A stretch of 51,794 bases of DNA from IMG/VR virus record IMGVR_UViG_3300044987_002198, positions 1-51,794 of that record; one strand, written 5' to 3'. This document shows, in pieces, positions 1,874 through 47,467 of the stretch (positions within the stretch are counted from its first letter, which is position 1; each line of letters opens with the position of its first letter). A program made the translations under genes and the position numbers. Below the pieces are notes generated by a model. That model did no database searches and was not told the DNA's origin. It saw only the letters and a program-made list of their open reading frames with translations. Origin of the DNA: a virus.

Positions 1874-2317
1874 ATGAAATTTAACGATGTACTCAACGAG
1901 CAGGGTATTTGGGCGATTATAAAAAGCGAATTAGAACTCGATGGCAAGATAGCCATGGAACTGACTCGCCGGATAACTAAACAATTACGGCTGTCTTGTG
2001 AGACTGCCTTGAAGATGGATCGCATCGAACTGCGCGAGGAACTCGAAGCCGAGGTCAAGAAAAAGTACGAGGCACGAGAAGCTGTCCTGAAAAAGCGCGA
2101 AGAGGCTGGAGGTGGTCTTACCCGAGAGGAACTCATCCGCTGTCTGGCCGACGCGGTAAACTCCACCGACAAAGATGGCAACCATGTAACCAACGTACAG
2201 GCGGCAAAACTGCTGACGGAGCTGGAAGGCTTCTCGGCAGCGACTCAGGACATCACGGTCAACATCATCAACTACGCCGACGCGCCGGACTTTTATAAAA
2301 CGGTACTGCCGGAATGA
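1874..2317 (+). CDS. Terminase small subunit (putative)
   Basis: The 147-residue protein lies directly before the large terminase and overlaps its start by ATGA, which with its size and acidic/helical character points to the DNA-recognition subunit of the packaging motor. The N-terminal part (residues 1-35) is a compact helical region; residues about 50-80 are a charged coiled-coil-like helix (ELREELEAEVKKKYEAREAV), as expected for the oligomerisation helix of small terminases. The C-terminal YADAPDF segment may contact the large subunit. The frame is open to a TTG at 1838, but the ATG at 1874 was chosen (AAAAGAG lies about 13 bases upstream). The assignment rests mostly on position. Confidence 0.65.
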   Translation: MKFNDVLNEQGIWAIIKSELELDGKIAMELTRRITKQLRLSCETALKMDRIELREELEAEVKKKYEAREAVLKKREEAGGGLTREELIRCLADAVNSTDKDGNHVTNVQAAKLLTELEGFSAATQDITVNIINYADAPDFYKTVLPE

Positions 2318-3876
2318 ATATCACTTACCCCATCCTCCCGCCCCGTCCCTATCAAATCCCGATACACAGGGCTTTGGACAGGGGCATCCGCAGGATTACC
2401 TATTCGTGGCCGCGGCGACACGGTAAAGACGTGACGATGCTCGACATCTTCATCAAGGAAGCGCAGAAGAGGGCGGGGAACTACTGGTACCTATTCCCGA
2501 CACGGGCGTGGGCAGAGCGGGCAATATGGGACAACACACAGTCGATCACGGTCAACGGCGTGGAGAAAACTGGCAAGCTCATTGACATCTGCCTCGGGGG
2601 ATTACCGGCAGAGAAAAGCGAAAAGAACCTGTCCGTGCGATTCCCGAACGGGAGCCTGATACGGTTTTCCGGTACGGACGATTTATCCTTCGTCGGGCAG
2701 GGCGGGTACGGGTATGGCATCAGCGAGGACTCCATCCACCGGCCAGACGTGACCAGTTACATCTCCCCAATACTAGAAGAAGCCAACGCGTGGCTCATTC
2801 GCCAAGGAACCCTGCGCGGGAAGCAGAACCACCTGTACAAAGCGATTTGCTCGGGATTTAAAAGCGAGGCGGTCTTTACGCAGTGGCTTACCCCGGAAAT
2901 CACGAAGGCGTACTGCTGGGTAGGAGGCAAGGTCAGCGTAAACCCCGAGCTGCTCGGCAAGATCAACCCGCAGACCGGACGGGTTTACCTCAACGTGCAG
3001 GATCTTGTGGATATCGGGGAAATTTCCTATTCGCTGGCGTATCGAGAATACCTGAACCGGGCGACCAACAACACCGACGAGGGGTACTACTCCAACGAAT
3101 ACGAAATCGCCAAGAACGAAGGGCGCATCGGTAGAGGGGCGCACGACCCTGCGCTGCCGGTCTACACGTTCTGGGACTTGGGGAAGGGCACAGCGGCGAA
3201 TTGCACCGACGCAATGGCAATGTGGCTCGTGCAGTTTCCACTCAATGACCTGCCGAACCCGAAGAAGATACGGCTCATCGGCTTCGAAGAAACACGCGGC
3301 GGGGTTTGGGAAGATCACGCCACCCTACTGCGGAGCAAAGGCTACGAGTACGGCGGGCACTTCATGCCGTGGGACATCAACAAGGGCGCGGCGGGGGTCA
3401 GCGGCAGTAATTTGCAGTGGGCGAAAGAGGCGGGTATCGAGTTTACTCCTGTCCAGCGGCGGGGGCAGGGCATCATGTCGGCTATCGAGCTTTGCCGCAG
3501 GGCGTGGGCGAAGGTGGAGTTCTGCCCCGGCACGGCGACCGACGGCGCGGAGCGGCTCAGTGAGTACCACGAGAAAAAAGACCGCGAGGGTGTTTTTATG
3601 GGGGTACCCGACCACGATAACAATTCTAATTGCGCAGACGGTTTTAGAACTTTAGTGGAAGCACTTGACAAAAAAATTGTGAGGTATAATCCTCCCAATG
3701 ATGCAACGCAAGGCGATAAAGAACCGGTCGTGCTTTCGATGAGCAGGGCGGGCGGATACACGCCAGTGGAGACGAAGCCAATGCTGTGTGCAAAAGGCGA
3801 GGGAGTAACTCAGAAAACTTTGGCCGACATCCGGCGCATCAGGGAGCAGAAAAAACAATCAGCATGGAGGAGATAG
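2314..3876 (+). CDS. terL: Terminase large subunit
   Basis: This 520-residue protein is the ATP-driven DNA packaging motor and headful or site nuclease. A Walker A-like motif WPRRHGKD lies at residues 32-39, the variant RRHGK being typical of short-tailed-phage terminases. The ATPase domain continues through GISEDS (about 135), the likely Walker B acidic pair. The C-terminal RNase H-like nuclease domain is marked by FWDLGKG (about 286-292), DAMAMW and a late acidic site in PDHDNNSNCADGF (about 430-445). Length is normal for the family. Its start overlaps the small subunit stop, so the two are translationally coupled. Confidence 0.92.
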   Translation: MNITYPILPPRPYQIPIHRALDRGIRRITYSWPRRHGKDVTMLDIFIKEAQKRAGNYWYLFPTRAWAERAIWDNTQSITVNGVEKTGKLIDICLGGLPAEKSEKNLSVRFPNGSLIRFSGTDDLSFVGQGGYGYGISEDSIHRPDVTSYISPILEEANAWLIRQGTLRGKQNHLYKAICSGFKSEAVFTQWLTPEITKAYCWVGGKVSVNPELLGKINPQTGRVYLNVQDLVDIGEISYSLAYREYLNRATNNTDEGYYSNEYEIAKNEGRIGRGAHDPALPVYTFWDLGKGTAANCTDAMAMWLVQFPLNDLPNPKKIRLIGFEETRGGVWEDHATLLRSKGYEYGGHFMPWDINKGAAGVSGSNLQWAKEAGIEFTPVQRRGQGIMSAIELCRRAWAKVEFCPGTATDGAERLSEYHEKKDREGVFMGVPDHDNNSNCADGFRTLVEALDKKIVRYNPPNDATQGDKEPVVLSMSRAGGYTPVETKPMLCAKGEGVTQKTLADIRRIREQKKQSAWRR

Positions 3877-7260: not shown

Positions 7261-8460
7261 ATGGCTATTATCAATGCAAATTTTACGACCCAATCGAGCG
7301 GCATTGCCGTGCCGTCCCCGACCGTAGTCGGCAACGACCTGCTCCGCGTGAATGATGTCAACCCGGACTTCAACATGCTCAACTCCGAAGACTCGGTGCT
7401 TTACCGCATCTTGGCTTTGCTGGCGCGTGAAGCTGACGCAACTCAGCCGCAGTTCTGGTACTTTGAAGACGACCTGAACGCTGTCACCACCACGGTGAAC
7501 GGTGCTGAAGCCAACGTCGCCGAAGCCACTGTCGTCATGGACGATGCCCTGCTTGCAGTAGGTCAGGTTGTTCATAACGTCCGCACCGGCGAAAACATGC
7601 TGTGTATCGCTGTCAATACCGCCCCGAGCTATGAGTTCGAACGCGGATACCAAGGCACGACCGCTGCGGCGATTCTCGACGAAGACCTGATCGCCATCCT
7701 CCCGGCTGTGCTGGAAGACGGCGGCGCACCGAAGGACTGGATTGGCAATCTGCCGACCAAGAAAGACCAGTTCGTTTCCTTCGTCTCGCAGTCCATCAAG
7801 TCCACGGACTTGCAGGAAGCAACCCAGATGCTCAACGGAGCCGGTCAGCTTTCCGCGCAGTACGCCAAATGCACGACTGACCTGATGCGGAAGATGAACC
7901 TGCTGGTTCGTCATTCGAAGAAGTCTCTCGATGCCGGTTTCGCCGCTGGTGTAACCACCAACGCCGCGTACCACACGGACGGGCTGGAACAGCTCATCAC
8001 CACGAACACTGAGCTTCCTATCACCGGTCTGGACTGGGCAAGTTTGAATACGGCCTTCAATGCCGCGTTCGTTCCCACCTCGTCCTCGATGGAAAAGATG
8101 CTGGTCCTCTCGCAGTACGCGTACTCGAAGATCAACAACCTCGTCTGGGGTCATTTCGTCGAAGGCGGAACTCCGTCCTTCCAGAAGACGTTCGGTGCTC
8201 TGATGAGTTCCATTCAGCTCGACGGCGGCGGCATCATCCACTTGGTGGCCGACAAGCATTCCTTCTACCCGAACAACCTCGGGAAGCAGGGCTACCTGCT
8301 CGACATGGCGAACGTCGGCATGAAGAAGATGGCTAACTTCGATCTCTCGTGGCGCGAAGTCCCGAAAGACGAGTACCGCGTCGAGAAGCATGAACTGAGC
8401 GATTCTATCGCCCTCATGCTGAAACATGCGAGCCTCCATCGTACCATCACGTTTGCGTAA
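7261..8460 (+). CDS. Major capsid protein (SU10/DUF5309-like, HK97 fold)
   Basis: The 399-residue protein should form the capsid shell. It follows the scaffold gene, has a perfect AAGGAG site and is the last gene before a strong terminator at 8467-8499, an arrangement that gives high expression. The segment FERGYQGTTAAAI near residue 125 resembles the conserved region of SU10-type capsid proteins, as does the pattern of domains with a long helix in the middle (SAQYAKCTTDLMRKMNLL). Family assignment comes from remembered patterns; a structure prediction would confirm the HK97 fold. Confidence 0.85.
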   Translation: MAIINANFTTQSSGIAVPSPTVVGNDLLRVNDVNPDFNMLNSEDSVLYRILALLAREADATQPQFWYFEDDLNAVTTTVNGAEANVAEATVVMDDALLAVGQVVHNVRTGENMLCIAVNTAPSYEFERGYQGTTAAAILDEDLIAILPAVLEDGGAPKDWIGNLPTKKDQFVSFVSQSIKSTDLQEATQMLNGAGQLSAQYAKCTTDLMRKMNLLVRHSKKSLDAGFAAGVTTNAAYHTDGLEQLITTNTELPITGLDWASLNTAFNAAFVPTSSSMEKMLVLSQYAYSKINNLVWGHFVEGGTPSFQKTFGALMSSIQLDGGGIIHLVADKHSFYPNNLGKQGYLLDMANVGMKKMANFDLSWREVPKDEYRVEKHELSDSIALMLKHASLHRTITFA

Positions 8461-8966: not shown

Positions 8967-9030
8967 TCTTGTCTTTTGACCGGTCAGCTAGGGTTTGTCT
9001 CGCCCTAGCTGACCACCTTCTCAGAGACTA
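8964..9030 (+). promoter_or_regulatory. Long hairpin between tail genes
   Basis: A perfect 12-base stem (8982-8993 GGTCAGCTAGGG with 9003-9014) closes a 9-base loop. Outside it TAGTCT (8964-8969, containing the stop codon) can pair with AGACTA (9025-9030). There is no T run, so it is not a standard terminator. It ends just before the AAGGAG site of the next gene and may influence mRNA processing, stability or start-site access. Confidence 0.6.
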
Positions 9031-9043
9031 AAAAGGAGATAAC

Positions 9044-9634
9044 ATGGCTGAGTACACAGAGTTGCAGTTGAAGGCAAAAGAAGAAGGCATCAAATCATGG
9101 CACGTCAAATCCGATGAAGTGCTGGCCGATGAACTGGCCGCGAAATGGGCAACGCCCGTTCCCGAAGATGAGAACAACGAGGTCGTAGTCTCGGAAACCG
9201 TCAAGGAAGCCCCGAAGTTTATCGCACCGGCTCCCGCCGCCGCAAAACCGCCGCCGCCCGCCGCCGCCCCCGAAGGAAAAGTCACCTTCTACTGGAAGGA
9301 CAAACGTAACGTCGAATTTACAATCGAAACGCGCAAAGCCACTCCGACATCGTTGCGTCAGGCCGAATCATTCGCCAGCAAGAACAGCGTTATCGTTCTC
9401 GACCCAACTAACCCGATTGAGAAACAGGCCATTGAAAAACTTCGCAAAGATGCGAAATTTAAACTCGACTTCGATGAGGTTGATAACCGCCGCAACACTC
9501 CCGGCCAAAAGGGAGCCAAACTCGACGAGCTGATGGAACTGGACACGAGCGTCCTCATCCAGATGGTCGGAGGGTCGATAGCCGACAGCCGTAAAACTCG
9601 CGGCGAGCTGATTCAGCAGATCATGGGCAATTAA
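9044..9634 (+). CDS. Hypothetical virion-region protein with Pro/Ala hinge (196 aa)
   Basis: The protein has a charged N-terminal helical part (residues 1-55), a low-complexity hinge rich in Ala and Pro (about 63-80, APAPAAAKPPPPAAAPEG), a small beta domain (KVTFYWKDKRNVEFTIETRK) and a helical C-terminus (KLDELMELDTSVLIQMVGG). The middle beta domain and hinge suggest two modules joined by a flexible linker. It lies between decoration and tail-adaptor candidates, so a head or neck role is plausible but unproven. The family is not recognised. AAGGAG precedes the start. Confidence 0.75.
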   Translation: MAEYTELQLKAKEEGIKSWHVKSDEVLADELAAKWATPVPEDENNEVVVSETVKEAPKFIAPAPAAAKPPPPAAAPEGKVTFYWKDKRNVEFTIETRKATPTSLRQAESFASKNSVIVLDPTNPIEKQAIEKLRKDAKFKLDFDEVDNRRNTPGQKGAKLDELMELDTSVLIQMVGGSIADSRKTRGELIQQIMGN

Positions 9635-10510: not shown

Positions 10511-10698
10511 TGCCTCCCCGCAAATCCTACAATCCGTACAAGATCAACACGGAGTCGATCAACCGTTTTCGCGGCGTGGCGAATCCTGAGAATGAGCTGA
10601 CTATGGCAAAGGTATACGTCGGCTCTTCCAATAACTGCGTGAGTTTTCGTACCGGCGAGTTGACCATTCGCTCAGGACAAGTCAGGGAGAGTATCTAA
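10510..10698 (+). CDS. Small protein; paralogue of the 11744-11926 module (62 aa)
   Basis: The 62-residue product ends in ELTIRSGQVRESI and has an F-x-G-(V/I) start followed by a DNA- or protein-fitting loop; the gene at 11744-11926 ends in VFKTRPGQVRESLFSGE and has the same general pattern. The pattern (F-G-(I/V)..., then D/N-x-hydrophobic-x-x-R-x-G) resembles the first 60 residues of tail-tube proteins of short-tailed phages, where the N-terminal arm ends in an R-P-G motif. It may thus be a free-standing N-terminal arm of a tail protein. It overlaps both neighbours (TAATG at each side), which implies tight coupling with the next gene. Confidence 0.65.
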   Translation: MPPRKSYNPYKINTESINRFRGVANPENELTMAKVYVGSSNNCVSFRTGELTIRSGQVRESI

Positions 10699-11747
10699 TG
10701 GCAGACGCAAACGGCATCATATTTAAGAATCCAACGCTGAACACTTGGTTCGTCGCGCCTGCCGTTGACCTGACGGCGTGGAACGTGCTTACGGTTTCAA
10801 ATTGCCCCGACACGGCGTTTAATCTGGAGTACACCTACGTTCCGGCTGCCGCGAAGTGGTCGAACGGAACTCGGCATATCTGGAAAGACACGCTCTGGTA
10901 TCTCTCTGATGGCACAACGACCTTTCACGCGCCGGACAACGGACTCAACACCCCTCCAGCTACGTTCTACCGGACGCTGGAGTATCCGCTGACGATTAGG
11001 GTTGTTGGTGCAGGATTTTCTGGCGTAAATGGTGACTATCAGTACTCATTTGGTGGGGGTGAGTATCCTCCGATGTACACACGCGGATTTTATTATCTGA
11101 AGTATAATTATGGAGATGAGCAATGGAATATTTCAAGCCTCATTGAGGGGCTCAGCACCTCCTATTACCTTTGTGACTCAACAGATTTCCTGCCACCGAA
11201 ATCTGACTGGTTGGAATCCGTTCCGACCGGAGATCTTCTGCCCGCCCCAACCCTCGAATACTCGCTGGAAGCAGGGGCCGCAAGCGTATCTCCGACTTCT
11301 TCCACCGCAACGTGGGTATCCAATAACCCCACCTCCGGCTTCGTTTCTTTGACCGGCACGCCGAACGAGGACTTCGGGTACGTCATCACCTTCGACGTTC
11401 AGGGCGGCGCGGACTACCCGTACTACAAGTATTGCACCAAGACGGCGGGAGAAGTTTACGGGGCTCTGCCAGAGACCACGAGAGATGGTTTTATCTTCGC
11501 AGGCTGGTTCACACTCGCCGGGGGAGAAGGAACCCGCATAGCGGCAACGGACGAACTTCTGGAAGCCGCCGACGCAACCTTTTACGCCAAGTGGGTAAAT
11601 AATGTATCAGGAAAGATAGGTTGCGGAGCCTGTTTGGTATCGCTGTTCGTGATTGGAATTGGAACCGACATCTTTTGCGAATCCATTGGTTCCCGCCTCT
11701 CCAAAACCACGCCGCAGACCATCGTCCGAAGGTTACCGACACCATGA
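10698..11747 (+). CDS. Virion protein with InlB-type B-repeat (349 aa)
   Basis: Residues 1-150 are aromatic and beta-rich with no recognised fold. Residues about 227-298 (VITFDVQGG through GFIFAGWF to FYAKW) match the Listeria-Bacteroides/InlB B-repeat pattern (T-F-D-x-N/Q-G-G, G-Y-x-F-x-G-W, Y-A-K-W), a small adhesin domain common on bacterial surface proteins. The last 45 residues include a hydrophobic stretch (ACLVSLFVIGIGTDIF). An ATGA overlap with the next gene argues that the frame to 11747 is real. It sits in the tail-tube block and could be a tail-side adhesion protein; its origin may be a bacterial surface protein. Confidence 0.65.
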   Translation: MADANGIIFKNPTLNTWFVAPAVDLTAWNVLTVSNCPDTAFNLEYTYVPAAAKWSNGTRHIWKDTLWYLSDGTTTFHAPDNGLNTPPATFYRTLEYPLTIRVVGAGFSGVNGDYQYSFGGGEYPPMYTRGFYYLKYNYGDEQWNISSLIEGLSTSYYLCDSTDFLPPKSDWLESVPTGDLLPAPTLEYSLEAGAASVSPTSSTATWVSNNPTSGFVSLTGTPNEDFGYVITFDVQGGADYPYYKYCTKTAGEVYGALPETTRDGFIFAGWFTLAGGEGTRIAATDELLEAADATFYAKWVNNVSGKIGCGACLVSLFVIGIGTDIFCESIGSRLSKTTPQTIVRRLPTP

Positions 11748-16891: not shown

Positions 16892-19171
16892 ATGGCAGAC
16901 ACAACTAAAACGCCAGAGGAACTCGCCGCCGAAGAACAGGCACGACAAGACGCATTGAAACAGGCAGAGGCAACGCCTCCAGAACAACTCGCACAGGAAG
17001 CTCCCCCTGCTCCAGAACCCAAGCCGCAGATTTCCATTAAACAAAGGGATGATCTGAACCGCGTTCTGGCCGCGCAAAACACCAATCTAAAATACGACAT
17101 TTCCGAGGTACTGTCTAAGATTCCGAACAACAAGGGGTACGGGTACAGCGGCGATAAAGTTGTTTTTATGGCACAGGATGGTGACTTGCTCGACTCAAAA
17201 GAAGTCATGCGGACGATGGATGCTGGTTACAAATTGACGAAAGACGCATACGGCGAAGCGGTTGCCAAGTTATCCACCAACGCCCTCGCACGGTCTGCCG
17301 ATCCGGGATTCAAGTTTACTCCAGATGATGTTTATAACGCATGGGAAAAGACTGCAAAAACGTCCGGTATTCTTGCCGAGGACTATGATCCTGAAACAGC
17401 GGTGGGTGTCGAGCGTGTGGACGCTACCGGCGCGGGCGCGATGAAGGTGATTCAGACTGCCGTTAAAACAACCTCCGCGCAGATAGAGAACGGGACAGGC
17501 TTCAATCAGGCCGTTGCCTACGGACTCTCGATGCTCAGTCAGGATGATTCGTTTATCGCATTGAGTGACCCGGCTAAAGCCTATTACGCCAAGCAACTTG
17601 TCACCACCTCTGACGAGGTGCGAAAGAGTGCTGAGGGCTCTGCTATTGTGAAATCAACACAAGCATGGAATCAGGCAGAACAGCAGGCACATCGGGAAAT
17701 TGGAGGGAGTATTAGCCTGCTGCCGGAAGATTTTGCTGTTCAACTCTCCCCGCAAGAGAAACTTGTCGCTGAAACCAATGCGGCTACCCTGCTTGAAAAC
17801 TCATCCAAAGTCGAGGTGGAAGCGGTTAAACTCAACCAGCAGGCTGAAAAAGAAGAACAGGATTTAGGGGCGATTCGTCGCAACTATCCGCAGGCGATTA
17901 AAGGACTTGTTGAAAAGGGCTTGAGCGAAGCGGAAGCAAATATCCGTTTGCAGAATTTAACCAAAGAAAAAGAACAGACCGTCGCCGCACTTCGCAAACA
18001 AGCTGAGACAACTGCACAGTCAGCAAAGAGCTACCAGCAATCGTCCGAGAAGGCTCTTTCGTATGCTACCAAAGGACTTCCGTATGGCCTGAAAGCCAAG
18101 GATACTGAACGGATCGTGGGCGGCATCGTTGGAAACATCGACGCGCTTTCAAGTCCGATTGCAATGGCGGAAGCGATGCACGTTACAGGTTCTCGTAAAG
18201 AAACTGCCGTAGATTACGGAAGTATGAACCCAGCCGACCAGTACGCGTTCTTCCTTGAACACGGAGTCAATCAGTGGCTTTCCGATTACTTGGCAAAAGA
18301 CCCGAATAAGAAAGAGGTTGCGGCAACCATCCGCGCAAACCTGATGGCGGAGTTTAATAAAAAGGGAAGCGTTGCGGGTGTTTCTCCTGATATGGATACC
18401 GCAATTCGTCGGCAGATGCAGAATTTCAAAAATGTCCAATCGAGACAAAGCAGCGCGGAACTGGTCGAGGCTCGCACCGAGAAGTACGACAAGTTCCGTT
18501 CCAAATTTCAGACCGACTTTTATAAGAAGATGATTGAAGGGGACGACCCGCAAGCCTTACTGAACGAGAATAAAGGGTACCTCGACCCTAAAGACGTTTC
18601 CGATTACGAGGCGTTCCTGAAAGACCCGCCTAAAACATTCAATGAAGTAATGTCCAATCCCAAAGCCAGCCGGTCGATGAAGAAAGCCGCGCTCGGGGAA
18701 CTGGAAAAAGAAAGCGCGACCGTCGCGGCCACTGTCGCCGAGAGTTTGAAATTTGTCCGAGGTGGGGTGCGGGCTGAGGGTAAAGTAGGCTTGCTGAAAA
18801 CTGCCGACGACGCGATAACCGCTGTCGTCAAGTCAGGACTGAAGAACGAACACAAAGCCGCGCTCATCGGACTGCTGGCGAAGAACAACGAAATATCCGG
18901 GGTAACTCGCGGGGAGTTCGTAGATGGGTATGGATTCGACCGGCTGTACGAGATGCACGTCGCCGCGACCAAGGCAACTGGTGTGTACGGTGGGTGGGCT
19001 GATTTCATGGATATGTACGCCGCGCTTGACAGGAAGCTCGGAGGTGTGGCAAAGAATGTAACAGACACTCAGAAGAAGGAAATCGTGAATACCTTCATCA
19101 AGGAAGCTACCGATCCGCTTATGAACCGTATGAGAGCGGCGGCTGTTTCCAACCTCGCTACCGGACGCTAA
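16892..19171 (+). CDS. Internal virion protein (putative, 759 aa)
   Basis: The 759-residue protein begins with an acidic, Gln/Pro-rich disordered segment (residues 1-45, PEELAAEEQARQDALKQAEA) and is otherwise almost wholly helical, with a charged coiled-coil region near 300-390 (VEAVKLNQQAEKEEQDLG and on). It has no recognised enzymatic motif. Position between two other large helical proteins and ahead of the tail fibre suggests an inner-core/ejection protein. TAGGAG precedes the ATG by 6 bases. Confidence 0.6.
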   Translation: MADTTKTPEELAAEEQARQDALKQAEATPPEQLAQEAPPAPEPKPQISIKQRDDLNRVLAAQNTNLKYDISEVLSKIPNNKGYGYSGDKVVFMAQDGDLLDSKEVMRTMDAGYKLTKDAYGEAVAKLSTNALARSADPGFKFTPDDVYNAWEKTAKTSGILAEDYDPETAVGVERVDATGAGAMKVIQTAVKTTSAQIENGTGFNQAVAYGLSMLSQDDSFIALSDPAKAYYAKQLVTTSDEVRKSAEGSAIVKSTQAWNQAEQQAHREIGGSISLLPEDFAVQLSPQEKLVAETNAATLLENSSKVEVEAVKLNQQAEKEEQDLGAIRRNYPQAIKGLVEKGLSEAEANIRLQNLTKEKEQTVAALRKQAETTAQSAKSYQQSSEKALSYATKGLPYGLKAKDTERIVGGIVGNIDALSSPIAMAEAMHVTGSRKETAVDYGSMNPADQYAFFLEHGVNQWLSDYLAKDPNKKEVAATIRANLMAEFNKKGSVAGVSPDMDTAIRRQMQNFKNVQSRQSSAELVEARTEKYDKFRSKFQTDFYKKMIEGDDPQALLNENKGYLDPKDVSDYEAFLKDPPKTFNEVMSNPKASRSMKKAALGELEKESATVAATVAESLKFVRGGVRAEGKVGLLKTADDAITAVVKSGLKNEHKAALIGLLAKNNEISGVTRGEFVDGYGFDRLYEMHVAATKATGVYGGWADFMDMYAALDRKLGGVAKNVTDTQKKEIVNTFIKEATDPLMNRMRAAAVSNLATGR

Positions 19172-19187
19172 AAGATAAGGACAATAT

Positions 19188-22100
19188 ATGGCTTTCGCTG
19201 ACCTGATGAAAAACGGGCTGAAGGAAACTCCTGAAGAGGAACAGATTCGGCTACAGCAGGAGGAAGCGCAGAAAGTAAGCCTGTTTGAAGGGTGGGATAA
19301 AACCGCCGCCGATGACCTTCTCTTTTCCCCTCCCAGCGAAGCCGAAGCCCCTGAGGACTACGCCCGCAATACGCTCCAAGCCTACTACTCCAAGGAACTC
19401 GGAGTGGACAGCCTCCCTGAGATGGCTTTCCAGCAATTTATCAAAGAGGATTTCGGGGAAGGCACAGACCACGCCACCGCTCTCAAATCCCTTCAAGAAA
19501 CCAAGCGTTGGGGGACGGAAGCTCGCGACCCGACGAAACTCGAACTCGCCAAGTATGAGAAGCTGACCGCTGGCGACTGGCTCCGTTCTTTCAGCGCGAA
19601 CACCACCAAGGCTGTCCACGGCATCGACGCAGGTCTGATGCGGGCGGCGGCGGCTGGCGCGGCGGCAGTCGGTAAGGGTGATTCTCAATTTTACGAAGTG
19701 ATGATGAACGCCGCTGATGACGTGACCGCAAAAGGTCAGGCCGGATACGACATAATGACCGGCGATAAATTCTTCAAGGACATTACCTCCGACGAAGCCA
19801 ACAACGACATTTTTGCCCAGAACATCGGGCAACTGCTCGTCGTGGTTCCGCTGGCTATCGCTACGGGGGGATCTTCGTGGGGCGTGAGCCTTGCCACGGT
19901 CGGTTCCATTAACTCGGGTATGCTTTTCAATGAAGGCTTCCAGCAGGCTCGGGAAGATGGTCAGGATGACAAGGAAGCCCTCAAAACCGCAGGACTCTAC
20001 ACACTCGCGGCGGCTCCCTCTGAAACGCTCGTTGACCTTGCAACTGCCGGTGTATTCAAGCCCTTCGTGAAGTACGCTTCAGCTTTATCCGGCCCCGTTC
20101 GTCAGCGGATTGTCCGCACGGCGATTCAGGGACTCACTGCCGCTGTGCCGGGGGGCTTCGTCGAAGGCGGTCAGTACGCCATGCTCAACAAGCTCACCAA
20201 CCGCCAGATCGACCAAGGCGAGTTCTGGGCAACCGTCCGCGCCGGTGCGATTCTCGAAGGACTCGGCGGCTCGATCACGCAGGTAGCCGGTGAGGTGGAT
20301 TCCGCCCGCGCAAAGGCAAAACTCCGCAAAGATTTCAAACCGGTATTCGGAAACCAGACCGACGCGGTGGTAGACCGCATCCTCTCCGACGAAGAACCGA
20401 ATAATGCCCTGAACCGTGAAGTTCTGAACCTTGTCACGGCTGATTTTAAAACGATTGCCCTGCTCGGTGAAAAGAGCGAGCTACGCGCCCGCGCTGAAAA
20501 GGCATCCGACGCAGTTTTCAACGAGCAGTGGAAGGTAGCCGGTTCCGAGCAGGAAGCCGCGCTCAAGGTGGAAATCCAGAAGCGGGCGGAACTCGAAGCG
20601 CATGAAACGCCCGAGGACATTGTTATCACCGAGCCGAAGCCAGCGACCACCACCCTGCCGACTGGCCCCGCTCAGAAGGAAAAGGAAAAAGCCAAAGCCC
20701 GCAAAGAAGCGGAGAAAGTACGGGCTGACCGTAAAAAGCGCAAAGCCGCTATGCTCGAAGCGATGACCGCCGATAACGCTCAACAGCGCACCGTTTTGCT
20801 GGACGACGGCGCAGAAGTCTACGAGGATGGAACACCCGTCGAAGGCTCGAAACCCGCCCCGCAGCAGGTTATCGAAACCGAAGCCGCTCCGGTTCCGGTG
20901 AACCGCATCGACCCGAACAACGGCGAGAACCTTGCCCGCCTGACCCTCGCTGTCATGGAAAACGAGAATCTTTCCCAAGAGCAGGCGATTAAGCGCGTTG
21001 CCTCTCTGCCCAGTCAGAAGCGCAAACAGTACCTTGAAATCCTCGACGACGGGACGATGGAAACCGTAGACCTCACTCCGGATGAAGTACGCATCCAAGC
21101 CATTGACGATGAACTCGAAGCGATGGGACGCGCTCCCCAGCCGCCCCAGACCCGTACTGCTTTCCCCGAAGGTCTGACCTCGGCGCGAATTAAAGCACTC
21201 CAGAACAGCATGACCCGCGAGCAGGCGGAGCAGCTGTACGCTGACGGCGACCAGAAGAATGATTTCATAGCCGCCGTGTTCGACGGTGACCGCAAAGCCG
21301 TCCAACGCTTCAATTCCCGCTCGCAGGGGCGCGAAGTCCAGACCGAGTTTAACATTGAGCCGGGTACGAGCTACGAAGCCGCTACACAAGCCGCCAGCGC
21401 ACCTCAGCCGGTCGTGGGTGACACTGTGATGCTCCCGAAAAAAGAGGGAGATGCTCCGAACGTCCACAAGATCGTTTTAGACCAAGTTGCCGCTGACAAG
21501 ATCAACGTCCTCCGCCAGAAACTGATTGATGCAGGCTTTGACGTAGAGTTGGTGAAAGCCGGTGATGTTGAAGAACGCTTCGGATATGCCGGTGTCAATT
21601 TAGCCAAGGAAATTGAAAGTCGCAAAATCCTCTCCGTCTCCGAGGACGGCACACTCGCCACGGTCGAAGGTCAGACCGCCCCCGTCCTCCTGAGTTCCAC
21701 CACACGCGGAACCAAGGGCGTATCCGAGACGGTATCTCAGAAGGTAGCCGAGAAGCTCGCGCCCAACGAGCAGGCGGAAGTATCCTCCGGCGCGAAGGTG
21801 TTCCGAACCCTCGCAACTCAGGATTACGTGAACAACCCCGATTTAACGGTAGCGGAAAATCTGAAAGCCCGCGAGGATGCCTTCTTTACCAAGCTCCCCG
21901 AACTCGCGGACGCGCTGGGCGTGACCACGGAAGAACTGCTTGTAGACGGACGGCAAGCCGAACTCGTGGATAAGCTGGCGGAGATGACTGCGACAACCCC
22001 ACCCCCACTGTCCGAAGGACTTTACAAAGCCAAGAATGAAGAGGGTCGCGCCTACAAAATTGCACAGGGATTTATTTGGAATGGTACGGATTGGGTTCAT

Positions 22101-25100
22101 CCTGATTACCCCGGAAAATCTTACGCATCCAGCGATGTTCCCGCTCCCTCAAAAGAAGCGGTACAAAGAAAGCTTGCGAAACTTCGTTTAGCTCCAACTA
22201 CACCCCCCTCCATCAACCCCGTAGACGCGAGTACGGCGGCTGTGGTGGGGGCGGCACAGCAGAAAGGAGAAGAGGTAAAGGGAGATCGCACTTACCTCGA
22301 AGAAGTCCCTACAAAACTACTTGAAGAGGGTCTTGCAAAATTTAAAGAGGAAATGTCGTCTGATTTTGTGTTTGGAGGAGAAGAGGCTCGTCGAAGAACC
22401 CAAGTATCCATTGATGCTTATACAGAAGAGCTTTTAAGAAGAGCAACCACTTCTTCCGACACCCTCTACCAAGCCCCGTCTAAAAAACTCACCAAGCTAC
22501 TCCAAGACCAAGGATTAACCCCCGAGGAAGCCAAGCAACTCGCGTCCGTCAAGACCGAAAAGCAAACCCTCTCCGACATCCAGACCGCTTTCAACGTCCC
22601 CGCTGACGAAGCCGCAGGGGTCGTGGCGATTATCCAGTCTCTCGGACTCGACGTGAACAACTTCGTGTTTCAAGAGGACAAAGCCACCAGCGGCAAGAAG
22701 TACATCGCCAAGACGCAGTTTATCCCCCAGCTCGCCAAAGCCCTCGTTACCGCAGGGAAGCAAGCCAACACCGAAACCGCTGTACACGAAGTCGCGCACG
22801 TCGCCCGCCGTTTCCTGCTCACCAAGGGCTTCGAAGGCTCCATCGACCTCGAAACCATCGACACCGTGGAAGCCGAGTACGGCGTAAAGGACGGGAAGTG
22901 GACACGTCCGCAGGAAGAACAATTTGCCGAGCATTTCGTGGACTTCATCAAGACCGGCGAATCCCCCTCGCAGGCAACCGATACCCTATTCCAGAAAATG
23001 TCGAACTGGATACGGAAAGTCACCCGGCTCTTTTCCACGCAGAATCAGGGCGTGTCCGAGAATATGCAGAAGGTGTTCAGCTCGCTCATGCAGCGCGGCA
23101 AGATTTCCGAAACCATCGACGAACAGCTTTCCCAGCTCGAAGAGGAAGTGAAGCAGGCTCGGGAAGGCCGGAACAAGAAGCAGACCGACTTCACCCCCCG
23201 TGAAGAGTCCGACGTGCCCTTCACCGCCGAAGAACCCGTTGTACAGTTCCGCAAGTCGGAAGCTGAACGCATCCTCGGTCGGGTGATGGGAGTCACCGAA
23301 AAAGGATTTTTTGAAACCGTCGAGATTGCCCGCCAGAAGGGGCTGATTGACAACGCTACCACCACCGCACGGAACATCCTTGCCGATCCCGAACGCCCGA
23401 TTACCGACGAAGAGTTCGCGGGGATGGCGGTGCAAAGTGCCGCGATAGAAGAACGCCAGTCCGTTCTGGACGTGAAGATATCCGAAGCCCAGCGTCAGGC
23501 CGAAGAAAACGCTCGCAGGGGTGGGGAACAGCGCGGGGGTTTCAGTTCCTACCTCGGCAAGCTCCAGAGCCAGTACCAGCAGTTGGAAGCCGATAAGATG
23601 CTTCTCGCTTCTGCCAACGCCCTGTCAGCGACCACGACTTCCAGAACCCTCGGCATCCGTCGCTTGGGTATTAACAAAACCACTCTCGAACCCGATACCG
23701 TTATTCGCAACATCAACAACCAGCGCGAGAAGCCGCTGGATACCGTTACCGAAGCCGATATTCGGAACAGTCTAAAGGGCGTGAAAACGAAACAGGATGC
23801 TTTGCGCTCCGCAACCCTTTCCATCGCCCGCGCAAAAGCCGATGCCGAGTTCCTGTACATGCTGAATCAGGGCGGTAAAAAACTCCAGTACGGGGAAGCC
23901 TCCGACCTCGCCGTGCGTATTTCACAGGGCTTGAACTCCGAAGGCATGACCCCTGAAATAGCGATGGCGATGAACAGCCTCGCCAACAACTACATCGCCA
24001 ACGGCGTAGACACCCTCGACGGGGTGTCGGATGCTCTTTTGAACCAGTTCTCCGAATACGGTTTGACCGAGCAGGATGCGTGGTATGCGGTAGCCGGTCG
24101 GTTCATCAGCCCGAAAGCCGTTACTGAACTCCAGCGCACCTCCAAGATTTTGAAGAAAGAAGCCAAGCTGTCCAGTCAGGTGTTTGATGCGTTCGAAGGC
24201 ATCTTCGAACAGCAGAAGGTCGGGCAGCCGATCACTTCGAAAAACATCGAAGATTTGACCAACAAGTACAAACTCCTGCGCTCTTTCTACGAGCAGGAAG
24301 AAGTCAACCCTGAGAAGCGCAAGCGCACCCTCGCGGCAATCGACGAAGCCCAGAAGCAGCTCGACACGATGTCCCGTCCTGTCCGCTACACCCAGCAGAC
24401 GCTAGACGAGGAATCACAGGCACTTCAAGACACCCTCAAGGATCTCCGTGGACAAATCACCGACACCGATACCAAAGCCAAGATCGACGAGGCTCTGCGG
24501 ACATGGAGTACCCCGTTCGTGGCGAAGGGAACAGCCGCCACCTCCGAAGCCCGCGCCAAGACCAAAGCCGACCTGAAGGAAGCACGCGACATGATGCGGA
24601 TGCACATGGCGCAGGGAACCCGCGACGAAGCCAAGCTCGCCGCCCGCTTGCTGGAGCGGTTGCAGGGGGTCGAGGACTCCTATGAAAAGATGTACACCAA
24701 GCTCCCGTCCAAGAAGGTCATGGAGCCGTCCGAAGCGATCAAAGACCTCCAGACCCGGCTCTCCGAGGCCATCAGCGCGAAGGGACTCCAGACCCGTATC
24801 CTGAACGTGCAGGATTTGATTACCAATTTCTCCGAGGAAAAGTACCGCGCACAGCTCAAGGAACTCGAACTCAACCCCGTGCTGGTGAAAGAGTCTGAGC
24901 GAATTACCAGCCTCCGCACCGAACTCGCCGCGCTCAACAAGCACCTGAACAGTAAGATGGAACGTGCCAAGACCGGAACCGTGAAGTTCTGGATGCGGGA
25001 AATTCTCAGCATCAACAAGGCTGTCCTGCTGTCCGGGGATATGCCGGTTCTGCGTCAGGGGGGTATCGTCACCTCGAACCCCTTCCGTGCGAACTTCTTC

Positions 25101-26117
25101 GATGTCACCGCCAAGTCCGCCAAGGTTTACTGGAGCGGGCTGACCAAAGGCACGATGACTGAACAGGTTATCAGTGACATTACCAAGTCGAAACACTTTA
25201 CCGAGTCCATCCGCCACGGGATGCAGTACCCCGATAGCAACGCCACCCTGACAGACGGGGAGATGATGGTCGGCGCGAACGTAGCCGAGAAGGTTCCTGT
25301 ATTCGGTCGGTTGATTGCCGGTTCCAATCAGGCGCAGGCGGCGGGGATTATGCTCGCCCGGTATCAGGCTTATGAGTCCTACCGCATCAAGTTCCCGAAC
25401 GCTTCCGACGCGGAAATGCGGGCATGGGCGGATGTGGTGATGACTTCCACAGGTAAATCCACCTCGGATATGGTCAACCGCGCCTCGACGTTCATGGACG
25501 TGTTCATCATTTCCACGAAGTACATGGCCTCGCGCTTCGAGACGCTGTTCAAGCCTCTCCAGTACGCACGGACACAGCCCCGCGTAGCCCGTGAAGCGTT
25601 AAAGGACTTGCTCTGGTTCTTCGGTACCCGTATCGCGCTGGTCGGACTGCTGAAGTCCTTTATGGGCGATAAGGTGGACATGGGAGCCGACCCGCTGAAA
25701 AGCACCTTTATGAAGATCATGGTGGATAGCGAGGATGGCACAACCCGTGTCTACGACCCGTTCGCAGGGATTGCTCAACCCATCCGGCTGATGCTCGGAA
25801 CTCCGGTCAAAGTCACGAAGAACATGATGGGCGGCAAGGAGAAGGTTTCCCCGATTGACGACACCCTGCGGTTCCTTCGGGCAAGGGCTACTCCCTTTAT
25901 TGCGATGGCGGACGGACTCGCATCCGGCAAAAACTATTTCGGGCAGAAAACAGGGAGGGGTGAGATCGTCGCCCGGTCGTACGCCCCACTGCCAATGCAG
26001 GATTTGTACGACTCGATTCAGGATAGCAAAGACCCGTTCGATATTTCGGTTGCGTCCTTCTTTAACGTGATGGGAGTAAACAGTTATTTTGACAGGACGC
26101 GGAGAGTAAAGAAATAG
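19188..26117 (+). CDS. Giant internal virion / polyvalent protein with zinc-peptidase motif (2309 aa)
   Basis: At 2309 residues this is the largest gene. Residues about 212-240 are hydrophobic (LLVVVPLAIATGG) within a helical N-terminal region, and about 460-550 is a Lys/Ala/Glu-rich linker. HEVAH at 1200-1204 with a downstream EEQFAEHF (near 1245) fits a zinc metallopeptidase of the HExxH-type with a third Glu ligand. A long coiled-coil region follows (about 1290-1930). The last 360 residues (WFFGTRIALVGLL, MASRFETLFKPLQYA) resemble the conserved C-terminus of large polyvalent phage proteins that are packaged and injected. It is probably ejected into the host, with the peptidase acting on the envelope, on the phage's own proteins or on host factors. 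AAGGA precedes the ATG. Confidence 0.75.
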   Translation: MAFADLMKNGLKETPEEEQIRLQQEEAQKVSLFEGWDKTAADDLLFSPPSEAEAPEDYARNTLQAYYSKELGVDSLPEMAFQQFIKEDFGEGTDHATALKSLQETKRWGTEARDPTKLELAKYEKLTAGDWLRSFSANTTKAVHGIDAGLMRAAAAGAAAVGKGDSQFYEVMMNAADDVTAKGQAGYDIMTGDKFFKDITSDEANNDIFAQNIGQLLVVVPLAIATGGSSWGVSLATVGSINSGMLFNEGFQQAREDGQDDKEALKTAGLYTLAAAPSETLVDLATAGVFKPFVKYASALSGPVRQRIVRTAIQGLTAAVPGGFVEGGQYAMLNKLTNRQIDQGEFWATVRAGAILEGLGGSITQVAGEVDSARAKAKLRKDFKPVFGNQTDAVVDRILSDEEPNNALNREVLNLVTADFKTIALLGEKSELRARAEKASDAVFNEQWKVAGSEQEAALKVEIQKRAELEAHETPEDIVITEPKPATTTLPTGPAQKEKEKAKARKEAEKVRADRKKRKAAMLEAMTADNAQQRTVLLDDGAEVYEDGTPVEGSKPAPQQVIETEAAPVPVNRIDPNNGENLARLTLAVMENENLSQEQAIKRVASLPSQKRKQYLEILDDGTMETVDLTPDEVRIQAIDDELEAMGRAPQPPQTRTAFPEGLTSARIKALQNSMTREQAEQLYADGDQKNDFIAAVFDGDRKAVQRFNSRSQGREVQTEFNIEPGTSYEAATQAASAPQPVVGDTVMLPKKEGDAPNVHKIVLDQVAADKINVLRQKLIDAGFDVELVKAGDVEERFGYAGVNLAKEIESRKILSVSEDGTLATVEGQTAPVLLSSTTRGTKGVSETVSQKVAEKLAPNEQAEVSSGAKVFRTLATQDYVNNPDLTVAENLKAREDAFFTKLPELADALGVTTEELLVDGRQAELVDKLAEMTATTPPPLSEGLYKAKNEEGRAYKIAQGFIWNGTDWVHPDYPGKSYASSDVPAPSKEAVQRKLAKLRLAPTTPPSINPVDASTAAVVGAAQQKGEEVKGDRTYLEEVPTKLLEEGLAKFKEEMSSDFVFGGEEARRRTQVSIDAYTEELLRRATTSSDTLYQAPSKKLTKLLQDQGLTPEEAKQLASVKTEKQTLSDIQTAFNVPADEAAGVVAIIQSLGLDVNNFVFQEDKATSGKKYIAKTQFIPQLAKALVTAGKQANTETAVHEVAHVARRFLLTKGFEGSIDLETIDTVEAEYGVKDGKWTRPQEEQFAEHFVDFIKTGESPSQATDTLFQKMSNWIRKVTRLFSTQNQGVSENMQKVFSSLMQRGKISETIDEQLSQLEEEVKQAREGRNKKQTDFTPREESDVPFTAEEPVVQFRKSEAERILGRVMGVTEKGFFETVEIARQKGLIDNATTTARNILADPERPITDEEFAGMAVQSAAIEERQSVLDVKISEAQRQAEENARRGGEQRGGFSSYLGKLQSQYQQLEADKMLLASANALSATTTSRTLGIRRLGINKTTLEPDTVIRNINNQREKPLDTVTEADIRNSLKGVKTKQDALRSATLSIARAKADAEFLYMLNQGGKKLQYGEASDLAVRISQGLNSEGMTPEIAMAMNSLANNYIANGVDTLDGVSDALLNQFSEYGLTEQDAWYAVAGRFISPKAVTELQRTSKILKKEAKLSSQVFDAFEGIFEQQKVGQPITSKNIEDLTNKYKLLRSFYEQEEVNPEKRKRTLAAIDEAQKQLDTMSRPVRYTQQTLDEESQALQDTLKDLRGQITDTDTKAKIDEALRTWSTPFVAKGTAATSEARAKTKADLKEARDMMRMHMAQGTRDEAKLAARLLERLQGVEDSYEKMYTKLPSKKVMEPSEAIKDLQTRLSEAISAKGLQTRILNVQDLITNFSEEKYRAQLKELELNPVLVKESERITSLRTELAALNKHLNSKMERAKTGTVKFWMREILSINKAVLLSGDMPVLRQGGIVTSNPFRANFFDVTAKSAKVYWSGLTKGTMTEQVISDITKSKHFTESIRHGMQYPDSNATLTDGEMMVGANVAEKVPVFGRLIAGSNQAQAAGIMLARYQAYESYRIKFPNASDAEMRAWADVVMTSTGKSTSDMVNRASTFMDVFIISTKYMASRFETLFKPLQYARTQPRVAREALKDLLWFFGTRIALVGLLKSFMGDKVDMGADPLKSTFMKIMVDSEDGTTRVYDPFAGIAQPIRLMLGTPVKVTKNMMGGKEKVSPIDDTLRFLRARATPFIAMADGLASGKNYFGQKTGRGEIVARSYAPLPMQDLYDSIQDSKDPFDISVASFFNVMGVNSYFDRTRRVKK

Positions 26118-37973: not shown

Positions 37974-38936
37974 TTAAAGCCCCGATTTCCAGCACTCGAA
38001 AGATTTCACTGCTCTTTGGGAGTTTGTGGGATGTCGCTTTTGCAAAAATGTTTTGAAGTCTATCTTTTTAAATAGGTTGGGTTGATTGCACCATGCAGCT
38101 AGATCGACATAAAAATCAGAGAATGGAGAATCCCAACAAGTTATGTCTCGCATGATGTACGGAAGTGTCTTGTTTTTACTACACCACAACACGCGCTGTG
38201 TCGTTTCGTGAAACGCCATGTCCGGGTGTGTATAAATGTTGAATTTAATCTGCCAGTCTTTGCGCCAACTCATCCGACTTAATCCAGCACTTACTAAGGG
38301 AAGGTACGCGAGAGAGTCGAACGAAAAAAGATAGTCTCCAAGGTAGTTTAGACGAGACAGTAACAGGCTAGTACAATCAGTCACTAACCGGATGTCTAGG
38401 CCGCTGTTAAAATATACCTTTATTTTTCTGTCCGCTAACTCTGTTAAAATCTCAGCGCACTCTGGCAGGGCAAGGATGTTGTTATCTAAGAAATTAACCT
38501 TCTTGTGCCTTAAAATTTTAGATATATCAGACACTTTTCTGATGGGGCCTTCCTTCTCAGGAACAACACAAAAGGAACACTTCCGAATACACCCCCTGCT
38601 TAGAAATCCGTAGGACGTGTCGTTGTCTGGGTATATTGAGTAATCGGGATCATAATCCTCAACGACATCAGGGAGTGTTGTTTTTAAATCCACTCCGGTT
38701 CCTCCAAACACAGCATCCCCTTTTATCAAATCCCTAGACCCTTTAAAGATTACGCTACAGTATGTTTTATCAAAGCCAGTAGGCAGTGTATGTGTCTTTT
38801 TGTTCTTCCGTGGGTAATACGAAATTCCCAACCTAAGCAGTTCAACAGAATCCCCTTGTTGTCTATGGTAAGAAGCCAGTTTCATAAGAGGGATATTCGG
38901 GATGGATGAGTCTGCGTCTACGAGTAAAATTTTCAT
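37974..38936 (-). CDS. Radical SAM enzyme
   Basis: The CX3CX2C iron-sulfur motif RGCIRKCSFC (C116, C120, C123) identifies a radical S-adenosylmethionine enzyme. Residues 1-45 (MKILLVDADSSIPNIPLMKLASYHRQ...) resemble the Rossmann-like B12-binding domain, but the cobalamin DxHxxG motif was not seen. The 320-residue protein is shorter than most B12-dependent relatives. The start was set at ATG 38936, which follows GGAG by 6 bases and lies one base after the helicase stop. Substrate unknown: it sits beside a helicase and a cytosine methyltransferase, so DNA modification is possible, but an RNA, protein or metabolite substrate is equally open. Confidence 0.85.
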   Translation of the reverse strand: MKILLVDADSSIPNIPLMKLASYHRQQGDSVELLRLGISYYPRKNKKTHTLPTGFDKTYCSVIFKGSRDLIKGDAVFGGTGVDLKTTLPDVVEDYDPDYSIYPDNDTSYGFLSRGCIRKCSFCVVPEKEGPIRKVSDISKILRHKKVNFLDNNILALPECAEILTELADRKIKVYFNSGLDIRLVTDCTSLLLSRLNYLGDYLFSFDSLAYLPLVSAGLSRMSWRKDWQIKFNIYTHPDMAFHETTQRVLWCSKNKTLPYIMRDITCWDSPFSDFYVDLAAWCNQPNLFKKIDFKTFLQKRHPTNSQRAVKSFECWKSGL

Positions 38937-38937
38937 A

Positions 38938-41058
38938 TCAATCTCCAAATGTTTTATTCAAAACGAGCCGGTCGGCTACGGACAGTTCGTGCGGCTTCGC
39001 ACCCCACTCCATCAAGACCTCGAACGGAACGACCTTCGGCTTCGGAACGTAGGTCGCGTAAATCAGCTTTTGCTTGTTGCCTTGCGACTGGTGAACGTAA
39101 GCCGCGTCATTAAGTGTCGCTCCGAACAGGATGTGATCGAACTCCGTGGTGTTGCAAGTGGTGACGAACACTTCATCGTATTCCTGAAGGTGGCGGTGCT
39201 GTCTGCCGATGGTCTGCTCGGCTCGCGCTGCGGAGCGCGGCCACTGCAAGTAGAACTGGTTACGGTCGAACTGGAGGTTCTTGCCTTGGAAGTGCGCGTT
39301 CGAGGTCAGAATGATAATGCGCCCCTTGCACTTTTCGCGGTCGTTAAGGATGCGGTTGAACTGCTCGCCGGCTTTACAGAACAGGGGGTTGAGTCCTTCC
39401 TCTTCAAAGCGTTCATTTGCCCATTCCCCAACCTCGTCATTGTCGTACCAGATGAGACACCCCTCCCCCTTCGGCAGGCACTTGGCGTACTGGACGGCTT
39501 TCTCAATTTTAAATCCGCAGACGTGGACGGCTCGCTTATTGCGTTCGATGCGCCCCTCGAAGTCTGCATCTTTCCAGTCCATCCAGAGCTTGTACAGCAT
39601 CGCGCCGACTTCCTTGGAGCCGTGGTCGCTCATGTTCTTACCGATCAGCATAGGCGTGTCCATGCCGTTGTGTCCACGGTCACGAATCCAAGCGCGGAGT
39701 TCGCGGGCATAGTCCATGTTCCGCTGGTGGTAGTTCTGGGAGAGTTCGAGAATTTCTTCGGCCTCGGCGGTGCTGGAATAGATACCCCGTTCCATCAGCC
39801 AATCAATATCCGGCCAGTAAAGCTCGGTGTAGAACCCAGCGCCTTGAATCCAATACTTCCACCGAAAAAGCATCATAGCTTCTTCAATTTCGTCGCCGGA
39901 CGGAGTGAGCCACTTTTCGTCGAGCTGCTTGACGAGTTCTTCAACGCGATCCCATCCCGGCGCGGAGGCGTATCCCTCGACCGGCTCGTTGTTGATGTAG
40001 AGCGAGTACGGGAGGTCGTGGCCGGACGAGCAGACTACGCCGGGGGTGGTGGTGAGTCGCTTCTTGAACGCTTTACGGAACCCGAGAACGGAGTTGTCGA
40101 ACTGCTCCCCTCGGAAATTCTTCCGCGCCCAGTCGAGGACGTACTTGAGCGGGCCTGCTTCGGATTGCTCGTCGCTCTTGAAGTCAGATACGGAGGTCGC
40201 CGTGGTGTCAATCAGCTTCGACCATTCTTCCGTCAGGGATACCGAGTTCGGGATGAAGTTGTTATGCCCGAGGGATGCGCGGGCGATTTCAAAATAATCC
40301 ATTAAGGACTTCTGTGTCATGGTTCCCGAGAGCGCGACGACCTGCGGGTGGCACTCGTGAAGGTACTGCGTGAACCGGCGCGTCCGGGCGGAACGCTTCG
40401 ATACGGAGTGCGCTTCGTCAAGGATAATAAGGTCGGGATTGACGGCGGCAAGGATTTCGTGCGCGTCTGCCGATGAAAGCAGGGAGTAGGTGAAAATGTA
40501 AAGCCCCTTTCGACCGGACTGGGCTAGTTGTTGTCTTTTGAGTTTTGATAACCCATGTAGCCGGTGGATCGGGGTGTTAAAAATAGTGAGCGGTCTCCAG
40601 TGTTTTATGTCCGTGTCGCAAAGCTGGGTTGCCAGCGCGGGCGGGACGATCAGCATGATTTTCTGCTTGCCTGCGCTGTAGGCATCGTTCGCTATCAGCA
40701 GGGAGGTCAGGGTCTTGCCGCCGCCGACGGCGAGCGGCAGGAACGCCCCGCCGACTTCGCTGTACGCAAGCAGGGATTCCGCCTGAGTCGGTAACAGCCG
40801 CCAGCCATCCGCGAACGCCTTGGCTTGGAAGTAGTGCTGCGACACGGCTTCCAGTACGTCGGCATCCGGCACGTAGCGCAAGGGTACGTTCACGATGCGC
40901 TTGAGTTCCTGCGAGACGGTTTCCATCGACCGCGCTCTCATAGCGTGTATCTTAGCGGGGTTCGGCGGACGGCGGGAGGGGGCTTGCGCCACCTTCTCCG
41001 CGCCGACGCTTTCCGCGAGGGCTTTCATACGCGCTATTTTGAGGGCGGTGGGGGTCAT
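38938..41058 (-). CDS. SF2 DNA helicase/translocase
   Basis: The 706-residue ATPase has GGGKT (112-116), LIILDEAHS with DEAH at 214-217, LSGTM (243-247) and a late RAEQTIGRQHRH (about 625) that is motif VI, the full SF2 set. It is longer than most phage SF2 helicases because of an insert of about 200 residues between the two RecA-like lobes (about 290-480), rich in aromatic and acidic residues. It should unwind or remodel DNA during replication. The start was placed at ATG 41058, overlapping the methyltransferase stop (ATGA). Confidence 0.85.
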   Translation of the reverse strand: MTPTALKIARMKALAESVGAEKVAQAPSRRPPNPAKIHAMRARSMETVSQELKRIVNVPLRYVPDADVLEAVSQHYFQAKAFADGWRLLPTQAESLLAYSEVGGAFLPLAVGGGKTLTSLLIANDAYSAGKQKIMLIVPPALATQLCDTDIKHWRPLTIFNTPIHRLHGLSKLKRQQLAQSGRKGLYIFTYSLLSSADAHEILAAVNPDLIILDEAHSVSKRSARTRRFTQYLHECHPQVVALSGTMTQKSLMDYFEIARASLGHNNFIPNSVSLTEEWSKLIDTTATSVSDFKSDEQSEAGPLKYVLDWARKNFRGEQFDNSVLGFRKAFKKRLTTTPGVVCSSGHDLPYSLYINNEPVEGYASAPGWDRVEELVKQLDEKWLTPSGDEIEEAMMLFRWKYWIQGAGFYTELYWPDIDWLMERGIYSSTAEAEEILELSQNYHQRNMDYARELRAWIRDRGHNGMDTPMLIGKNMSDHGSKEVGAMLYKLWMDWKDADFEGRIERNKRAVHVCGFKIEKAVQYAKCLPKGEGCLIWYDNDEVGEWANERFEEEGLNPLFCKAGEQFNRILNDREKCKGRIIILTSNAHFQGKNLQFDRNQFYLQWPRSAARAEQTIGRQHRHLQEYDEVFVTTCNTTEFDHILFGATLNDAAYVHQSQGNKQKLIYATYVPKPKVVPFEVLMEWGAKPHELSVADRLVLNKTFGD

Positions 41059-46510: not shown

Positions 46511-47467
46511 TCAGATGCCTTTCTCGGTGGGTTTGTAGGGAACGCCTATAAAGTCCAGCACTTTCCCGCATCCGAGGGTATTGATGCAGTAGTTCCACTG
46601 CTTCGGGTGGCTGGTATACATGCGTTGGAAGCGGTTGCTTCCTTTCTCCAAGTGGACACCAAACATACAGAACATGCATCCTGTACGTGTTTCGCCCATG
46701 TCGTAGATTTTTGAGTAGGGGAGGTTGTTTTGTTTAATGTATTCCCACACGTCGGACTCGTTCCAGAAAGATAGTGGCTTACTGAGAGGGTGCTTTAAAG
46801 AAAATGCGTTGCATCCGTAGTTGATGTATTCCTGTTTCCGTGTTGTAGATTCTGTAGCCATCACTCCTATTATTCCGCATCGTCCTGTCTCTTTTTCGTA
46901 AGCCTTCAATGGGTTCTTTTTCATAACTGTGCAACAGGAATCAGAGCATTTGAAAGGGGCATCCACCAAAGGAAGCCAACGAGCAGGAACTTTAGATTTT
47001 GGTGAAGGCGACCCATCAGCGTTCTGCCCTAATGTTAAACGACGAACGACCTGCGCTGACTTTGTTCTTTGAAGCCGTCCAACATAATCGGATACTTTCT
47101 TACTCACAACCGGATAACCGTATTTCTCAATCACCTGATTGAACGGCATCTTAGGCTTCAACCAGACTACCCGATCACCGAACGATTTTACAAAGTCACG
47201 AATTTCTGGATATTCAAGGCCGGTATCAACAAAAACAGCAGGGATGCGCGGGTTAATTGACCAGACCAAATGCAATAGAGCTGTGCTGTCCTTACCCCCA
47301 GAAAATGCCACATAACATTGATCCTCCCAATGGTCTAGCCATTCCTGAATACGCTTCTTGGACAGTGTTACCTTGGCGTTCAGCGGCAATGCCTGATACT
47401 GCTTCAACTGCGAAGCAAGTATCTGACTGCGGGTAGGCTCAGCGGTTAAACTCGTCGTCGGTTCCAT
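46511..47467 (-). CDS. PAPS reductase-like PP-loop enzyme
   Basis: SGGKDS (56-61) is the PP-loop of adenine-nucleotide alpha-hydrolases, and the overall order fits PAPS-reductase-like proteins: FVDTGLEYPE follows the first strand, CSDSCC lies in the middle (about 170-180), and a GCMFCMFG pair near 265. The cysteine set suggests an iron-sulfur cluster. Phages often carry such genes; roles proposed are DNA phosphorothioation (DndC-like), sulfur metabolism or modification of host targets. No dnd partner is seen in this window. The gene overlaps the upstream small gene by 29 bases. Confidence 0.8.
   Translation of the reverse strand: MEPTTSLTAEPTRSQILASQLKQYQALPLNAKVTLSKKRIQEWLDHWEDQCYVAFSGGKDSTALLHLVWSINPRIPAVFVDTGLEYPEIRDFVKSFGDRVVWLKPKMPFNQVIEKYGYPVVSKKVSDYVGRLQRTKSAQVVRRLTLGQNADGSPSPKSKVPARWLPLVDAPFKCSDSCCTVMKKNPLKAYEKETGRCGIIGVMATESTTRKQEYINYGCNAFSLKHPLSKPLSFWNESDVWEYIKQNNLPYSKIYDMGETRTGCMFCMFGVHLEKGSNRFQRMYTSHPKQWNYCINTLGCGKVLDFIGVPYKPTEKGI

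Follow-up and report, generated by a model that had tools for sequence, protein, structure and literature searches.

Among the domains of polyvalent proteins, zincin metallopeptidases (MPTases) are the most frequent (Iyer et al. 2017, PMC5512222). As described in the part of that paper devoted to these peptidases, they place an HExxH helix and a later Glu-bearing helix within a giant late phage protein, and 12 clades of them have been published. Bbp10 of Bordetella phage BPP-1 (phrog_9880), whose residues 700-1000 are one seed of the CLCA_X family according to the relevant section of PMC3650047, has an HExxH...E domain homologous to the one studied here, and its giant gene ends the ejection cassette, before the tail-fibre genes. 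DdrB of the myophage P1, likened here by description, is likewise large and is predicted to contain a zincin MPTase; it is processed before packaging, and its own MPTase was proposed as the cutter (PMC5512222). The virion RNA polymerase (vRNAP) of coliphage N4 carries an HExxH domain, C1, in a giant ejected podophage protein (PMC12633501, PMC5512222). In the portions of the literature that deal with the domain family (PMC3650047, PMC5512222), no measured activity is reported.

The protein described here comes from a single virus record of 51,794 bases, analysed in full and called the window. The source of the giant is a phage of the short-tailed type, which also encodes a family A DNA polymerase and a helicase. 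In the window, late genes of 1238, 336 and 759 aa are followed by the giant and then by a gene of 931 aa. The features used in the text are as follows.

2314..3876, plus strand: terminase large subunit (phrog_2; tblastn to annotated terminases)
7261..8460, plus strand: major capsid protein of SU10 type (PF17236, E 3e-12)
16892..19171, plus strand: 759-aa late gene directly 5´ of the giant, probable internal virion protein (from position only)
19188..26117, plus strand: giant late protein, probable ejection-type polyvalent protein (ORF, translation and gene order relative to BPP-1-like phages)
22650..23057, plus strand: zincin-like peptidase domain, residues ~1155-1290 (leave-window-out profiles; AlphaFold2 core pLDDT ~85-95)
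22785..22799, plus strand: HEVAH, residues 1200-1204, with H1200 and H1204 as predicted zinc ligands and E1201 as predicted general base
22917..22919, plus strand: E1244, carried by the helix that follows the HExxH helix and predicted to be the third zinc ligand
24855..26090, plus strand: C-terminal region, residues 1890-2301, common to giants without the peptidase domain

The ORF and its translation agree with the 2309 aa read earlier; the start codon is ATG. As a whole it gave nothing significant against Pfam, PHROGs, NCBIfam and PDB. Pfam searches recognised no effector domain in its N-terminal 1100 residues and, unlike in the polyvalent proteins described in PMC5512222, no second polyvalent-protein domain besides the zincin. 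An RNA polymerase domain, such as the N4 protein has, was not found. The preceding 759-aa gene had no family match, and homology of its product to Bbp11 lysozyme-type proteins was looked for and not found. Elsewhere in the window, a late gene at 10698-11747 (plus strand) contains a Listeria-Bacteroides repeat domain (PF09479), and the replication-side block encodes a radical SAM protein (37974-38948, minus strand) and a PAPS-reductase-domain protein (46511-47467, minus strand).

The sequence-only reading had proposed a peptidase embedded in the giant, and strong support for a zincin-type domain now comes from homology, from the conservation of the ligands and from the predicted secondary structure. 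On sequence comparison, residues ~1155-1290 are homologous to a domain of the giant proteins encoded last in the ejection cassette of BPP-1-like podophages (Bbp10/phrog_9880). A tblastn search confined to residues ~1145-1311 produced weak matches, the best at E 4e-3. Most of them lay in giants of BPP-1-like podophages or comparable phages, and those in Nsp-JY18, 1.021.A and HU1 spanned just the segment after HExxH. The HExxH motif stands at the aligned place in 12 of 12 giants from named phages. A profile made from the domains of these twelve, with the window left out, recovers the window protein at E 1.2e-14, the only match outside its training set to pass the threshold in 3245 sequences; of 200 shuffles, none did better than E 0.036. 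Another profile, built from 56 metagenomic members and again excluding the window, detects the giant at E 4.2e-25, its motif being in register. Direct comparison with a single relative (phmmer against L114) gives E 1.7e-22 over residues 1122-1303, and the isolated domain region matches phrog_9880 at E 1.7e-05. Within the known Bbp10 zincin family, which is present in hundreds of giant phage proteins, the domain of the window is a divergent member. An orphan giant that Pfam, NCBIfam and PDB sequence searches had left unrecognised is now placed in a widespread family. That the domain is a zincin of the polyvalent/Bbp10 kind we consider very probable. Single-sequence scans of metagenomes and genomes with the whole protein, the domain, the capsid protein or the terminase yielded no confirmed relatives, nor did a plasmid search or a scan with a two-sequence alignment of the C-terminal part.

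HEVAH is indeed found at residues 1200-1204 and is the sole HExxH in the entire protein. The downstream Glu site mentioned in the earlier reading is E1244, which lies within 'EEQFAEHF' and is conserved in relatives. The possibility that His and Glu would vary among relatives was raised as grounds for abandoning the peptidase; H1200, E1201, H1204 and E1244 are all conserved, being among the invariant positions of alignment A4. E1244 is invariant also in alignment A6, a set collected partly on the Glu motif. At V1251, F1253 and T1279 the giant departs from the family, which usually has E, Y and Y. The CLCA_X consensus HExxHxxxD, as given in the section of PMC3650047 on that family, differs from the HEVAHVARR of the window, while the seed Bbp10 reads HESGHFFLE.

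Metagenomic relatives were collected with a pattern for the downstream motif only, E[QKT][FW]A[RE]x[FN]ExY, from which HExxH was absent, and matches were confirmed by tblastn to the window. This resulted in 80 loci, all with the domain; 68 have HExxH and ten HExxxH (78/80 with either), one is truncated and one lacks the motif. Keying the scan on the Glu motif means that E1244 and positions 1251 and 1253 are conserved in this set partly by construction, and the aligned subsets A5 and A6 retained HExxH members only. The variant HExxxH (e.g. HEMSGH) replaces HExxH in L137-L140, L143, L144, L151, L152, L155 and L162; such a variant is also among those described for polyvalent-protein MPTases in PMC5512222. 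The exceptional giant ORF (L130, match at 9001-9507) has kept the domain and lost HExxH, reading IRGMAHVFRR, and to judge from its sequence this is possibly a dead peptidase.

Some further HExxH motifs were encountered. HELGH or HEVVH is found in the giants L001:17148-21896, L004:27793-34293 and L096:15524-19373, possibly representing other zincin clades or chance; these were rejected as instances of the same domain and left out of its support, because the domain profile gives no match to them. Two giants contain two HExxH each (L105, Pseudomonas phage AF, at 807 and 1007; L106, Lbo-JY46, at 533 and 1177), of which only one per pair matches the domain. An 885-aa protein with LPD23 and HEIQH (L045:1504-4161) adjoins a related terminase.

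Two AlphaFold2 models, calculated from alignments of 54 and 57 sequences, had mean pLDDT of 75 and 77, with the core mostly at 85-95. The predicted order of elements is strands, the HExxH helix (1195-1210), a helix and the E1244 helix (1240-1256), and the same order is described for the zincin core of polyvalent-protein peptidases (PMC5512222, in its account of the fold). The earlier reading would have been contradicted by a fold devoid of a peptidase site; the models instead present a zincin-like arrangement with both the HExxH helix and the Glu helix. Foldseek against viral predictions returned 7 matches at E<=0.001, including giants annotated as 'large polyvalent protein associated' or as 'crystallin beta/gamma motif'. 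Against PDB no match at E<=0.001 was obtained, so there is no significant similarity to a solved zincin, and for this reason the fold assignment is based on the motif, the element order and published profile work.

In annotated records of BPP-1-like and similar phages, the domain gene codes for ~2000-4000 aa. In most cases it comes directly after a gene for an internal virion protein, an endolysin or a structural lysozyme, with tail-fibre, tail-spike or holin genes following; one record among those compared for gene order (L103) is without annotation. The window giant is a large gene ending the late cluster, the same place, at the end of the ejection cassette, as in BPP-1-like phages. From gene order, packaging of the giant and its ejection together with the DNA thus seem probable, and the injection proposed in the sequence-only reading becomes plausible.

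Outside the zincin, the N- and C-terminal parts of the window protein have no detectable homology to the domain-bearing giants; LPD22 and PBECR1 of Bbp10 are missing, and taken whole the protein cannot be recognised as a homologue of Bbp10. Among twelve records behind close domain relatives there was no terminase match to the window, which is weak evidence because some of these records are fragments. A search with the whole protein found only one named phage, whose giant (L001) matches the C-terminal 270 residues of ours (22% identity, E 2e-5). A terminase-based scan led to a metagenomic relative (L091) with a 1604-aa giant that has residues 1890-2301 in common with ours (25% identity, E 2.5e-26) and contains no HExxH; hence the C-terminal part is kept both with and without the peptidase motif. 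Domain searches of the giants revealed ART, PBECR, LPD22 and LPD23 in the domain relatives, and in bbp10-type records the zincin together with LPD22, PBECR or ART. In all four giants that have a recognised enzymatic or toxin-like domain, a small sample, it lies N-terminal to the zincin: PBECR1 in Bbp10, ART in Jess A, PBECR5 and GNAT in Ab9, and PBECR5 in L116.

Several other explanations of the motif have to be weighed. HExxH arises by chance in many proteins (PMC3650047, where motif frequency is discussed), and a long helical protein might have acquired it in this way. However, with His making up 0.5% of the giant's residues, any HExxH appeared in just 0.15% of 2000 composition shuffles; this, together with the leave-window-out profile matches, the invariance in A4 and the motif in nearly all metagenomic loci, refutes a chance origin, to which we assign practically no probability. 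A non-peptidase enzyme, e.g. an alpha-ketoglutarate-dependent HExxH hydroxylase, would agree with the failure of PDB fold searches to single out a peptidase, and HExxH is known in such enzymes, as is noted for the N4 C1 domain in the part of PMC12633501 concerned. Nevertheless, the downstream Glu helix and the strand order suit a zincin core, and published profile work, as far as it treats Bbp10 and the MPTase domains, puts them among zincins (PMC3650047, PMC5512222), so that a hydroxylase appears improbable. Somewhat more credible, although still unlikely, is a catalytically weak or dead zincin fold that the ejection protein has retained for a structural role. The deviations at V1251, F1253 and T1279, the loss of HExxH in one relative and the existence of HExxxH variants would all fit it, but none of the four residues predicted for catalysis or zinc binding is altered in the window, and HExxH or HExxxH is maintained in all but two of the metagenomic relatives.

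As to the role, the earlier reading offered the opening of the cell-wall protein layer, processing of the ejection machinery and the cutting of a host defence protein. No supporting evidence was found for the first, and among the three, processing, whether of the giant or of the ejection machinery, fits best. We lean towards a zincin-like domain in an ejection-type polyvalent giant that mainly processes itself or co-ejected proteins. The giant would be packaged in the capsid and then ejected along with the DNA, and the peptidase would for the most part work in cis, on the giant that carries it, inside the capsid or just after entry. By such cleavage the variable N-terminal ~1100 residues would be detached from the C-terminal part, which other phages keep in the absence of this peptidase. 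For it speak the precedent of P1 DdrB, the C-terminal part found in giants lacking the domain and the position of effector-type domains N-terminal to the zincin. Against this reading we count the three deviating residues, the lack of a solved-zincin match and of an N-terminal effector domain, and also the N4 vRNAP, which in spite of its MPTase enters the virion uncut (PMC5512222). The alternatives listed in the passage of PMC5512222 on function are post-entry self-processing and cleavage of host proteins. The latter would make the peptidase a true effector whose target, cleaved immediately on injection, is a host protein such as one used in defence. It could draw on the presence of the domain in giants with otherwise unrelated flanks and on the ART and PBECR toxin-type domains that neighbour the zincin, but the fixed placement of the domain within a large structural polypeptide suits processing at least equally, and we hold a host effector to be rather unlikely. 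The same low probability applies to a mobile, swappable injected protease directed against a host (defence) protein and carried on unrelated giants of many phage lineages.

The mosaic pattern, i.e. the domain with unrelated flanks and the C-terminus with or without the domain, provides a concrete test between ejection-protein processing and host action, and H1200, E1201, H1204 and E1244 are the residues to be targeted by mutation. Finally, the names given to BPP-1 bbp10 (L100:6685-12843) and similar genes, 'crystallin beta/gamma motif-containing protein' and 'lysis protein', look misleading.
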